From a virus, in the IMG/VR virus record IMGVR_UViG_3300048536_000696, positions 1 to 42,473 of that record: 42,473 bases of DNA; one strand, 5' to 3'. Shown piece by piece: positions 1,738-6,797 of this stretch. The notes under the pieces were generated by a model that saw only the letters and a program-made list of their open reading frames with translations, ran no database searches and was not told the origin of the DNA. Within the stretch, counting starts at the first letter, position 1, and each line of letters opens with the position of its first letter. The position numbers and the translations under genes are program-made.

Positions 1738-4700
1738 TTACCAATCTAAATTGGTTTTGCTAAACATCTCTCGAGTTTTATCAATATGTTCTAAAGACAT
1801 CGATGAGTTTGTTACAGTATTAGACCGTTGATTATTATTAATAATGGTAGGTGCACTAACTGATGATGCTACTGTATTTGTTAAGTCACTTAATAAATCT
1901 TGATTTTGACTTTGTGTTGCAGCTAGTTGTGATCCAGCAGTTGGAACTGGTGCATTTAAAATTCTCACACCTTGTTGTAATGGACTAAGTTCGCCAAATC
2001 CTTCGACACGATTTTTAGTTCTATCAAATAACTTTTTACCTTCTCCAATAGGATTTCGCGAGGACATTACACGTTTTATTCTCCCTTGAAAATCTGGACC
2101 AGCGATTGCACCAATTGCTCTGCTTGCAAATCCGTTTAGTCCCGTTGATTGTGTCTGTCCAAATACACCAGGCCGTCTTATTGGTTGAGCGGTATTAGTA
2201 AGATTATCTTCTCCGGTATCAGCCATTCTTGCTGCTGACTCTTCCTTGAAATTTGCTGAACGCGCTTGTATTTGTGCTGTTTCATCTGCATCCATACCTG
2301 CAATGCTCTGTCTCATACGTGATTGAAACGACATACCTGGCATAACATTACCTGAAGCCCCCGGAAAAAGAGGATCTAGGGTATTAAAGTCCCGTTGATT
2401 GGCATTAGCACTTAAATCAGGAGCTGTTAAAATAGTATCTGCACCGGTATCTCCCATTATTTTTCCACTAGCAGATACAGAATTTGGATCAAGTTGTTTA
2501 AGTCCCTCTGCGGTATCCAACTGTCTAATCATCTTTTCGTCCAGAGGTATTCCCATTCCATTCTCGAGAGGCTTCACCGATTTTTTAAAATCTTCGTATG
2601 TTGTTGGGTGAACTATATGTTTGCTTGGATCATCATCGAGATTATTAACTCCCTTCTTAATATAAAAAGCAGGTTCTCCTTTGATCTCATGTTCGTAGCC
2701 ATATGCTTTAACTATTCTTGACTCTGTCATCGTCGTTCCATACATATGTGGTATTCCCTCTATTACTGCTACAGGATTTCCATCAATGAATCCAAAACCT
2801 TGTTTGATATCAGGTTTAATCTCTCCTGTTATAGATTCAGTTGGCTTAGCAGCTGCTGCGATTTCAGCATCTTGTTTTTTAACGAAATTTTTATTGTGCT
2901 CCATACGAAGCTTTGTACCTTCAGTCATATCGTCTTCCGCTATCGGCAAGCCTGTGCCAGCAGAGAGAACGCTGTCTTCTAAAAATGGTAGTTGTGTACT
3001 TTTTTCTTCAGCTGGTTCAGTTGGCTTAAAGGTATTATCTTCGCCTAATATGTTTTTTCGTATGGCATTTCTACCACCGTACGAGATATCATCGTTCTGT
3101 GCTCGGTAGTATTCCTGAGAACCTCTTTCTGTACCCGCATAAATGTCAATGTTATTAGCTTTAACATATTTCTTCCGTGCTGAGTTTAGATATTGTCTAA
3201 ATCCAATCTTTCTTCTTCCGTCCTCGCCGCCATATTTTGAGGGCAACATGCCAGCGTCTATTAGCATGTCTACCTCGCCTTGATCCACTTTATTAGCTGC
3301 TGCGATTTCAGCATTTTCTAATTCTATAAATTTCTTTTGTTGAGCTGGATCTTTATATTTCCGTATCTGCATCGGGCCATCATCACCGTCTTCATCGAAA
3401 CCACCGACGCTGTAATAGATACCGCGATATCCCTGTGGTCGGTCAATCATTTCGTAATCTTTTCCTTCGACAGTCTCATCTTCAAAAGAATCTAAATCTT
3501 TTTTAGCACTTATGGCATTCTCCATTACCATTTTATAATTTGCTTCTCCATCGGTTTTCTTACCGGTTATTGTTTCTGTTGGAGAACTGTTTGATGTCGA
3601 CTCTACCTTTTCCTTTTGACCGGTTATGCTTTCGGTTGGAGATACCGGAGCTGGAGATACCGGTGCAACTTTCATCGTTCCATCTTCGTTAATACCATCT
3701 GGCATTTTTAGGTAACCTTCATCTCCTGGCTTAAGTGGTTCCATGCCTTTTGCGATGCGTGAATTGTCTTGCCTTGTCCTAGCAGCTTTTAAATTGTCTG
3801 CCATGTCGCGTGCAATCTCTGGTGTCAGTGGCGCGCGCTCCAATTTTTCATAACCTGTTATTACATTCTTTCGAAATCCATAAATACCCTGTTTTTCATA
3901 AATTGGTTTATTGGCATTTAATCCCTGTCTCTGCAATTCTAGTATCTTTTCTTCAGGAAGAGGACCAGACATATCAACACCTCTCATTTGTGCAAGCTTA
4001 TTTCCCAAAGGCCTGCCCATCATATCGCTGAATCTATCTTCACTTCCAAACAATTTCGGAATATTGTTGATCCCTGTTCCTGTAAGATAACCAGTACCAG
4101 CTGCCGCGGTTATCTGCGCCGTCAGGAGCGCAGCTGGAGACATGAGCAACGCCCTCCCCAAACCAAGTGTGCGACCCCCAAGTCCTCGTACAAGCCCACG
4201 GGCGCGACCAAGACGACCTTTAGGCTTAGGAGTTTTAGGCGTAGGAGTTTTTGGGCCGCCTCTGACGAGGTCTATTGCCTTTTTCCCTAAATAGGTTTCT
4301 CCAGCCACTTCTAGTGCAGTTCCTAAGATGCCACCGCCACCGCCTTCGCCACCACCGCCGCCAGAACCGCCTCCTTTTAAAAAGGCACTGCCACCTTTGG
4401 TAGCATCGAGCATTTCGTCATGTCGTCTTTCGTTGCGAGCTATCTGTTCTCTTTTTTCTTCTCTATCTTTTAATTTATTACTTTTGTCATCTAAAAGATG
4501 GTCATAGATATTATCAATACCAGTACGAATGCCTCGTAATTCTTCTAATGATTCATCAGTAGATAAACCTGAAGCTGAGGCTGGGGATACACCTTCGACT
4601 GAGTCAGCTGAGGAGATACTCGAGTCAATTCCTTCAATTTCATCAGATTTGCTTTCTATTCCTAAAATTCCGTTAAGTGCTGACTCACCATCAAAAGCTT

Positions 4701-5181
4701 TTGCTGCTTTAGAAATCTTTGACAATAACTTTTGACGAATTAAAAAGAATCGTGTCTTCGTTATAAAATCTTGCTCAGGCGAAGAGCCAAGTATATCATT
4801 AACATCTATCTCTTTACCAAACTCAAAGTTTGCACTCTTAGCAGCAGTTCCAACCTTTTTGAGAATTTGATTTTTAACTCTTAACCATTTTAAACTCGTA
4901 AAAAGGCCGAGCTTGGGTGGTTCACCTAGAAGGTCAGATATTTTTATCTCTTTACCAAGTTTAAGACCTCGTAACTTTCCTCCTTGTGTCTTTTTAATAA
5001 GTGCATTAAGAATATTCCTTCTAACTTTAATATATTTTAAAGCCAAGAGATAATTCGTAGTATCTAAATTATCGTTACTACCTAATAATTCAGATAAATC
5101 TAAAGTAGCTTTGATATCCCTATCACCATTGCTTTCTTTATCTTGCTTAATTGCTTTTATTAACTCTTGTAGGTCGGCCAT
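1738..5181 (-). CDS. Putative tail tape measure protein (gp29-like role)
   Basis: This 1147-residue protein directly follows the gp26/gp51 frameshift region, the standard place of a tape measure gene. Residues 25-175 hold three diverged repeats of about 50 residues, each with an LLG or ILG motif followed by a basic helix. Residues 180-270 are acidic and helical, ending in a run of glycines, then a Pro/Lys/Arg linker and a hydrophobic stretch near residue 350 (LLMSPAALLTAQITAAAGTG) that could cross or contact a membrane. The rest is repetitive and polar, with three copies of TESITG or TETITG. The C-terminus has an Asn-rich APTIINNNQ segment like those ending other phage tape measures. T4 gp29 is 590 residues, so this is nearly twice as long. 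Function is inferred from position and composition; another internal virion protein is possible. Confidence 0.55.
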   Translation of the reverse strand: MADLQELIKAIKQDKESNGDRDIKATLDLSELLGSNDNLDTTNYLLALKYIKVRRNILNALIKKTQGGKLRGLKLGKEIKISDLLGEPPKLGLFTSLKWLRVKNQILKKVGTAAKSANFEFGKEIDVNDILGSSPEQDFITKTRFFLIRQKLLSKISKAAKAFDGESALNGILGIESKSDEIEGIDSSISSADSVEGVSPASASGLSTDESLEELRGIRTGIDNIYDHLLDDKSNKLKDREEKREQIARNERRHDEMLDATKGGSAFLKGGGSGGGGGEGGGGGILGTALEVAGETYLGKKAIDLVRGGPKTPTPKTPKPKGRLGRARGLVRGLGGRTLGLGRALLMSPAALLTAQITAAAGTGYLTGTGINNIPKLFGSEDRFSDMMGRPLGNKLAQMRGVDMSGPLPEEKILELQRQGLNANKPIYEKQGIYGFRKNVITGYEKLERAPLTPEIARDMADNLKAARTRQDNSRIAKGMEPLKPGDEGYLKMPDGINEDGTMKVAPVSPAPVSPTESITGQKEKVESTSNSSPTETITGKKTDGEANYKMVMENAISAKKDLDSFEDETVEGKDYEMIDRPQGYRGIYYSVGGFDEDGDDGPMQIRKYKDPAQQKKFIELENAEIAAANKVDQGEVDMLIDAGMLPSKYGGEDGRRKIGFRQYLNSARKKYVKANNIDIYAGTERGSQEYYRAQNDDISYGGRNAIRKNILGEDNTFKPTEPAEEKSTQLPFLEDSVLSAGTGLPIAEDDMTEGTKLRMEHNKNFVKKQDAEIAAAAKPTESITGEIKPDIKQGFGFIDGNPVAVIEGIPHMYGTTMTESRIVKAYGYEHEIKGEPAFYIKKGVNNLDDDPSKHIVHPTTYEDFKKSVKPLENGMGIPLDEKMIRQLDTAEGLKQLDPNSVSASGKIMGDTGADTILTAPDLSANANQRDFNTLDPLFPGASGNVMPGMSFQSRMRQSIAGMDADETAQIQARSANFKEESAARMADTGEDNLTNTAQPIRRPGVFGQTQSTGLNGFASRAIGAIAGPDFQGRIKRVMSSRNPIGEGKKLFDRTKNRVEGFGELSPLQQGVRILNAPVPTAGSQLAATQSQNQDLLSDLTNTVASSVSAPTIINNNQRSNTVTNSSMSLEHIDKTREMFSKTNLDW

Positions 5182-5186
5182 GTATC

Positions 5187-5194
5187 TATTTATT
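5187..5194 (-). promoter_or_regulatory. Late-promoter-like octamer before the tape measure gene
   Basis: The minus strand reads AATAAATA, one base off the T4 late promoter octamer TATAAATA, ending 5 nt before the ATG at 5181. It overlaps the stop codon of the gp51-like frame. The 5-nt spacing is the same as at five other starts in the window. Confidence 0.5.
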
Positions 5195-5375
5195 TGTTTT
5201 GCCGTTTAATTCGCTCATTTTCTTCCTTTATATGCTCCTGAAGAAGAGATACGTATATCTGCCTTTCCCACGGGATCATATTGTCAAGTTCTGTTAAACT
5301 ATATTGATGATGCTGCATCATCGCAAAGTTTGTTTGATAATGATTCCCTAATGAATCATGAGAAAGGCCTATGAG
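5190..5375 (-). CDS. gp51: gp51-like extension of gp26 expressed by -1 frameshift
   Basis: After the T TTT TTC heptamer at the end of gp26, the -1 frame runs 61 sense codons to a TAA at 5190-5192, 8 bases before the tape measure ATG. It encodes a compact helical segment with core SLTELDNMIPWERQIYVSLL and a charged Lys/Glu-rich end. This matches the short second domain of tail assembly chaperones as I know it from T4-like phages, usually labelled gp51 or baseplate hub assembly catalyst. A slip would give a fusion of 232 + 61 = 293 residues. An in-frame ATG pair near the middle could instead start a free protein of about 43 residues. No good Shine-Dalgarno sequence precedes it, which favours frameshifting. 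Confidence 0.75.
   Translation of the reverse strand, partial: LIGLSHDSLGNHYQTNFAMMQHHQYSLTELDNMIPWERQIYVSLLQEHIKEENERIKRQNK
5306..5322 (-). other. Inverted repeat inside the gp51-like frame
   Basis: GATGATGC and GCATCATC flank a single central base, so a 6-bp stem with a 5-base loop can form on either strand. It lies 53 bases past the slippery site, probably too far to stimulate frameshifting by itself, and encodes an ordinary Met-Gln-His-rich stretch. Confidence 0.4.
5340..5359 (-). other. Hairpin downstream of the slippery site
   Basis: A perfect 7-bp stem (ATGATTC with GAATCAT) with a 6-base loop begins 15 bases past the slippery heptamer. There is no U-tract, so it does not look like a terminator. 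Typical stimulatory structures sit 5-9 bases away, so a stimulatory role is possible but unproven. Confidence 0.5.
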
Positions 5376-6070
5376 AAAAAAGAGTCAATTCCTTCTAGTA
5401 AAATCTCATTATCATGACCGCACTCTTTACATTTAAATTTGGCAATATATTGTAGCTTTGGAATATTTTGGATATACTCTTGAATTTTTTCAAGATGTGA
5501 ATGTGATAATGAATCAACAAATTCAATTAATTCTTTTTCAGTTGATTCGCTTGCAGGATATACACTATCTGCATCGTAGATAGATTCGATCGAATATATA
5601 ATTGTTTGATTAAATGCCTTTTCAGGATTTTTATCATCGATTTTTTCTGTATCTTTTAATGATAGCTGCTTAAGTATTACTCCAACTGAATCATTAATTT
5701 CAATTGTGTTACTAACTTTATTGACTTCAGATATTGTAATATCTTCAAGGTTAATTTTAACATTAGCGTATTCGTCACACTTTTCGCATTTAATCCGTAC
5801 ATTCACGGTTTCTCCTACGCTTTTTGCTCGCAGCTTAAGAAAAATATATTCGAGATCTGATGCAGTGCATTCATTTGGATCGAGCTTTTCGAAAGAACAT
5901 GCTTTTACAATATCTTTAATTATTGGTAAGATCTTGCTCTCATCTTCTGTTTCTTGAGCGATCATAAGAACCTTTTCTTCCTTTACAAGGAACGGTCTAA
6001 AATCAACTGTTTTATTAAGAGAAGGTACCTCAAAAGGGTACTTCGGTACATCTAGTTTTGGTAATGCCAT
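5369..6070 (-). CDS. gp26: gp26-like baseplate hub protein / tail assembly chaperone first part
   Basis: The 233-residue product has the gp26 (T4_baseplate family) pattern: an N-terminal RPFLVKEEKVLMIAQE segment, then LEYIFLKLRAKSVGE. Two CxxC pairs follow (Cys95/Cys98 in KCEKCD and Cys214/Cys217 in FKCKECG), which together could bind one zinc. T4 gp26 (208 residues) is a hub assembly factor. Here the gene lies between a tail-tube-like gene and a tape measure and ends in an in-frame slippery heptamer followed by TCA TAG, so I infer a tail assembly chaperone role with a longer frameshifted product. A TATAAATA octamer lies 42 bases upstream of the ATG. Confidence 0.8.
   Translation of the reverse strand: MALPKLDVPKYPFEVPSLNKTVDFRPFLVKEEKVLMIAQETEDESKILPIIKDIVKACSFEKLDPNECTASDLEYIFLKLRAKSVGETVNVRIKCEKCDEYANVKINLEDITISEVNKVSNTIEINDSVGVILKQLSLKDTEKIDDKNPEKAFNQTIIYSIESIYDADSVYPASESTEKELIEFVDSLSHSHLEKIQEYIQNIPKLQYIAKFKCKECGHDNEILLEGIDSFFS
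5375..5381 (-). other. Slippery heptamer T TTT TTC for -1 frameshifting
   Basis: On the minus strand the final codons of gp26 read GAC TCT TTT TTC TCA TAG. The heptamer T TTT TTC is in the exact X XXY YYZ register, so both tRNAs can re-pair one base back. The zero frame stops 6 bases later, while the -1 frame continues for 61 codons. Confidence 0.75.
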
Positions 6071-6128: not shown

Positions 6129-6797
6129 TTAGAAGTCAAATCCAGAAAAAGCGGCCGCAACGCCTCGATCCATGTTATCTCTCACTTGCGCGCGCAATTC
6201 TCGAGGAACCTGATCTATATAATCTCTTGGAGATTTTATTTTTCGTTGAGTAGCATCATCCTGAGGTTGATCAATATATTTTTCCTTAAAGTCCTCATAC
6301 GTAAATTCTACAGTTACTTGTTGTATATCTTCTCCGGCATTACTTGATTCAATTGATTGCACTGATACTGGAAATGCATTCATCAATTCTACTTCAAAAA
6401 CATGTTTATTATTGTTATCATTTTGATATAGATACACGTCTCTTTTATATACGCTATCGTAATTTTTCTTAAACGTATTCCTATTGATAATCATATTAGT
6501 CCACTTATCAAATATTTCTTTAATAAAAAAATCATTAGTAAGATTAAATGTTATTGAAACATCCTCGTTAATAAAAGATTGTGCAACTTTTATTTGTTGA
6601 CGAGTGTAATTCGTCTCAAATGTTTGCATCTGTCTTCCAGGGAAAGAACACTGTTCGCAAAAGATATTAAGATCTCTTGCTTTATCTACGTTACCGCCAA
6701 AAGCAGCAAATGGTGGTATTATTATTGCTTCGAATCGATTAGCGCGAGCAAATCCGTCTCTTCGTGATACAGCTGATTTTAGTTTATCGATTTCCAT
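6129..6797 (-). CDS. Tail-tube-fold protein (gp54/gp19-like)
   Basis: The 222-residue protein shows the tail tube family pattern: ARANRFEAIIIPP near the N-terminus, then an EQCSFPGRQ segment, then alternating beta strands (EDVSITFNLTNDFFIKEIFDKW, in part) ending in VTVEFTYEDF. This fold is shared by the major tube protein gp19 (163 residues) and the tube initiators gp48 and gp54 in T4. Since a gp48-like gene lies just across the divergent promoter and this one neighbours gp26, a gp54-type initiator at the baseplate is the more likely role; a tube subunit is the alternative. Its ATG overlaps the preceding stop (TAATG). The last 40 residues are a charged, Arg-rich tail. Confidence 0.7.
   Translation of the reverse strand: MEIDKLKSAVSRRDGFARANRFEAIIIPPFAAFGGNVDKARDLNIFCEQCSFPGRQMQTFETNYTRQQIKVAQSFINEDVSITFNLTNDFFIKEIFDKWTNMIINRNTFKKNYDSVYKRDVYLYQNDNNNKHVFEVELMNAFPVSVQSIESSNAGEDIQQVTVEFTYEDFKEKYIDQPQDDATQRKIKSPRDYIDQVPRELRAQVRDNMDRGVAAAFSGFDF

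Follow-up and report, generated by a model that had tools for sequence, protein, structure and literature searches.

A probable -1 programmed frameshift between gp26 and a gp51 domain in a marine T4-like phage

In the virus record IMGVR_UViG_3300048536_000696, all 42,473 bases of which constitute the window analysed here, gp26 and a gp51 domain very probably form a single gene, expressed through a -1 programmed frameshift as products of 233 and 293 residues. An earlier note had proposed such a junction, and comparison with related phages now strongly supports it. The frameshift itself is a known trick which, according to the papers discussed below, had already been reported for T4-like phages, of which this marine phage is a further member. 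The analysis nevertheless corrects the annotation of the locus in marine T4-like phages, where gp51 is usually given as a separate gene or omitted, although the data favour its production from gp26 by a frameshift. A simple explanation also follows for the presence of both gene 26 and gene 51 in T4.

Organization of the gp26 locus

The gp26 gene (TAC-N; 5369..6070, minus strand) encodes a 0-frame product of 233 aa, not 232 as given in the earlier note. Profile searches assigned it to PF12322 (T4_baseplate, E=1e-54) and to PHROG 150 (E=5e-60). Its 3′ end reads TCT TTT TTC TCA TAG, in which the slippery heptamer T TTT TTC (5375..5381, minus strand) matches the codons of gp26 and thus stands in exact slippery register, as had been noted. 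The site has the X XXY YYZ form of a -1 frameshift gene, is read in the 0 frame and lies inside the overlap of the two frames. Past the heptamer, the -1 frame reads CTC ATA GGC ... AAA TAA, with its stop at 5192-5190. This extension (5190..5375, minus strand), the part specific to the long form TAC-NC, comprises 61 residues and a stop. The description of the frame in the earlier note was accurate: it is open for 61 codons, its stop precedes the ATG of the following gene (5181) by 8 bases, its ATG-started part amounts to 43 codons, and the fusion product would have 293 residues.

The gene upstream of gp26 (6129..6797, minus strand) is tail tube-like (PHROG 45 tail tube, E=3.2e-33). Downstream lies an 1147-aa gene (1738..5181, minus strand), which probably encodes the tape measure protein, judging from its position. 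Family profile searches in the window gave no significant match for this gene, and its syntenic counterpart in phage phiN3 has weak tape-measure profile matches. The tape measure gene that the earlier note placed downstream of gp26/gp51 fits by position, while no profile confirms its identity.

For structure prediction, separate models were made of gp26 and of the gp51 domain, each from its unchanged translation. The AlphaFold model of gp26 has a mean pLDDT of 88.8, and the gp51 domain is predicted to be all-helical with a mean pLDDT of 76. In a fold search, the gp26 model matched models of other phages' proteins named gp26, gp51 or hub assembly catalyst. The same model gave no significant match in a PDB fold search, and searching solved structures by sequence, with gp26 and the gp51 domain as queries, returned chance-level matches only.

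Conservation of the slippery heptamer

The earlier note had suggested comparing related phages for an in-frame heptamer and an open -1 frame. Relatives were collected via gp26 and via the gp51 domain, which gave 159 analysable sequences and 110 once near-duplicates were removed. T TTT TTN is found in register in 110/110 of these non-redundant relatives, whose gp26 identities reach as low as about 40%, a proportion that applies to relatives in which the gp51 domain was found and is not a frequency among all gp26 genes. Elsewhere in gp26, an in-frame TTTTTT occurs at only 17 of 23,453 other codon positions. The first Phe codon of the heptamer is TTT in all 110 sequences, while Phe codons elsewhere in gp26 are TTT in 72% and TTC in 28% of cases. 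The base preceding it is always T, though the codon to which that base belongs encodes Ser, Asp, Asn or Ala. The second codon of the heptamer is TTC in 54 sequences, TTT in 45 and TTA in 11. One codon separates the heptamer from the stop in 96 relatives, none in 11 and three to nine in the remaining 3. Because the relatives share descent, a simple probability for this pattern should not be taken literally, but the pattern is clear.

A heptamer of the same type is present in the cyanophages S-WAM1, P-SSM2, S-CAM4, S-CRM01, MA01 and S-SKS1, in Pelagibacter phage Mosig and Methylophilales phage Melnitz-3, and in phiN3, pf16, nt-1, D486, RHph_I1_9, ORM_20 and Vibrio phage 2.275.O. In the last of these, a 349-kb phage, T TTT TTC stands at the end of a strongly diverged gp26, together with an open -1 frame (~2600-2860). 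The gp51 frame is unannotated in the public records of S-WAM1, S-CAM4 and ORM_20.

Coding in the -1 frame and alternative explanations

From the slip site onward, the -1 frame is under coding constraint. In 94 sequences in register, the codon phase with the most variation moves by -1 at the heptamer, and all six of its Ts are invariant. Downstream, the amino acids of the gp51 domain are conserved in the -1 frame, with variation at third positions. In addition, a profile search gave PHROG 634, 'baseplate hub assembly catalyst', for the extension (E=5.8e-28).

These conservation data already contradict the reading of the -1 open frame as a chance or decayed frame without product, to which we attach a negligible probability. 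Its length of only 61 codons and the missing annotation in the three records named above would suit such a frame. However, neither the strong family match nor the amino-acid conservation with third-position variation would be expected of it, and the domain is homologous to the C-terminus of T4 gp51, an essential protein (PMC3004832). It is also very unlikely that gp51 is a separately started gene, translated by ribosomes that end gp26 and re-initiate at an internal start of the -1 frame. This arrangement would agree with the own CDS that gp51 is given in many phages, with the TAATG overlaps, lacking the heptamer, of Ackermannviridae and of Vibrio K364, and with an ATG ATG at 5321/5318 in the window. 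However, in 108/110 relatives no ATG stands ahead of the conserved L-S-H block in the -1 frame, and in 103/110 none of the three start codons considered (ATG, GTG, TTG) does, which makes a separate initiation of gp51 implausible. Furthermore, initiation at 5321 would cut away most of the domain's first predicted helix, a conserved one, the internal ATGs lack Shine-Dalgarno pairing (but so does gp26), and the invariant heptamer would be left unexplained.

A fused mRNA could alternatively come from transcriptional slippage at the run of T, in place of ribosomal frameshifting. An invariant run of 6-8 T is present in the relatives, and a polymerase slip of suitable length would give access to the -1 frame as well. 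Yet 65/110 runs have just 6 T, which is shorter than usual for polymerase slippage, and the run stands in exact X XXY YYZ register and is often ended by C or A, so that we consider this origin extremely improbable. Three observations count against ribosomal frameshifting itself, namely the lack of a conserved downstream RNA structure, the many records that annotate a separate gp51, and the Ackermannviridae and Vibrio K364 relatives without a canonical heptamer.

Relation to T4 genes 26 and 51

Both T4 proteins, gp26 and gp51, figure in a published list as hub assembly chaperones (PMC3004832). The short (gp26) and long (gp51) chaperones of T4-like phages belong to the same two protein families as those of this phage, with the difference that T4 has two separate paralogous genes where this phage has one gene and a frameshift site. 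In the T4 relatives RB14, phiAS4 and KpV477, gp26 and gp51 are likewise two separate genes, and the in-register heptamer is absent from the last 90 bases of RB14 gp26 and of phiAS4 gp51. Profile comparisons paired the T4-type gp51 with the conceptual fusion (242 columns, E=1.5e-19) and the T4-type gp26 with its short form (E=3.6e-19), indicating that what is encoded by two genes in T4 is encoded by one here. T4-type gp26 and gp51 also match each other (E=2.6e-10), and RB14 gp51 additionally matches PHROG 150, the gp26 family.

Other arrangements are found among more distant phages. Campylobacter phage CJLB-14 carries a gp26-gp51 fusion in a single frame. Relatives in the Ackermannviridae have a gp51-like extension in the -1 frame and no canonical heptamer; the two frames overlap by TAATG in Kamild and CECAV050, and Marshall has ATT in place of the ATG. 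Vibrio K364 similarly combines a TAATG overlap with the absence of a canonical heptamer. It is possible, and we put it forward with some reserve, that the gp26 frameshift is ancestral across the T4-like superfamily and stimulated by an upstream Shine-Dalgarno-like element and not by a downstream fold, and that it disappeared from T4 and the phages closest to T4 when the gene was duplicated, one copy being short (26) and the other long and fused (51).

The earlier note had implied that a frameshift in gp26/gp51 would be new. Two later papers (PMC10885494, PMC12846349) credit Vladimirov, Gautam and Davidson 2022 (Virology 566:9-15) with the identification of the tail assembly chaperones of T4-like phages, and the second of these, from 2025, also attributes to them poly-T slippery sequences in the TAC-N genes of such phages (PMC12846349), so that the implied novelty is not supported. 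According to the PRFect paper, which cites the same study, some T4-like phages carry the short chaperone and the fused long one as distinct genes (PMC10885494). A literature search found no direct report of a cyanophage gp26 frameshift. A frameshift in a tail assembly chaperone is also described for phage Adele and for Vandenendeviridae/Andersonviridae (PMC12846349). Those systems resemble the present one in their contractile tails, in a T-rich -1 motif (GTTTTT there) that ends TAC-N and in an overlooked -1 frame. They belong to other phage families, and the likeness drawn here is one of features.

Proposed mechanism

Close parallels are lambda gpG/gpGT and the conserved frameshift in tail genes reportedly described by Xu, Hendrix and Duda in 2004, a paper cited in PMC10885494. 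Like gpG/gpGT, the gp26 locus would lie between a tail tube-like gene and a presumed tape measure gene, and would make a short and a long product by a -1 slip shortly before the short frame ends. Unlike in lambda, the heptamer is T TTT TTC instead of G GGA AAG and the short form is larger.

On this model, most ribosomes would end at the gp26 stop and release the 233-aa short chaperone, while a minority would move back by one base at T TTT TTC and translate 61 further codons, producing the 293-aa gp26-gp51 fusion. By analogy with gpG/gpGT, both forms may cover the tape measure protein as a coat, and the helical domain at the C-terminus of the fusion may recruit tail tube subunits. That slippage occurs, its rate and the chaperone function are suggested by homology, by position and by what is known of lambda gpG/gpGT.

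Candidate stimulators and a short internal frame

A 7-bp hairpin, ATGATTC..GAATCAT (5340..5359, minus strand), lies 15 bases past the heptamer, as the earlier note had observed, and is the minimum-energy fold of the strand (z -1.6). As a functional element it did not hold up. It shows no covariation and is not conserved, since its pairing across relatives (68%) equals that of a control in which the positions were shifted by one codon (66%). RNAalifold likewise found no consensus pairs downstream in 39 sequences, in a search for conserved structure other than pseudoknots. The hairpin was hence rejected as a frameshift stimulator.

An alternative, tentative stimulator is the Shine-Dalgarno-like AGAAGGA (5390..5396, minus strand), located 8 bases upstream of the heptamer. 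Pairing of the upstream 20 nt with the anti-Shine-Dalgarno reaches -6.1 kcal/mol, which is stronger than in the gp26 background (-2.1 kcal/mol) and in synonymous shuffles (-5.2 kcal/mol), although the z of -7 overstates the significance because the sequences are related. Most of the pairing is due to conserved amino acids, above all an invariant Gly, and for this reason the element is proposed only tentatively.

Shine-Dalgarno pairing is little or none at the starts of gp26, of the tube-like gene and of the downstream gene. Inside the gp51 frame, a mini-ORF of 10 codons, MSELNGKTNK (5186-5218, minus strand), is associated with a strong Shine-Dalgarno-like sequence. Its stop lies 4 bases before the downstream ATG at 5181, and it might play a role in re-initiation.
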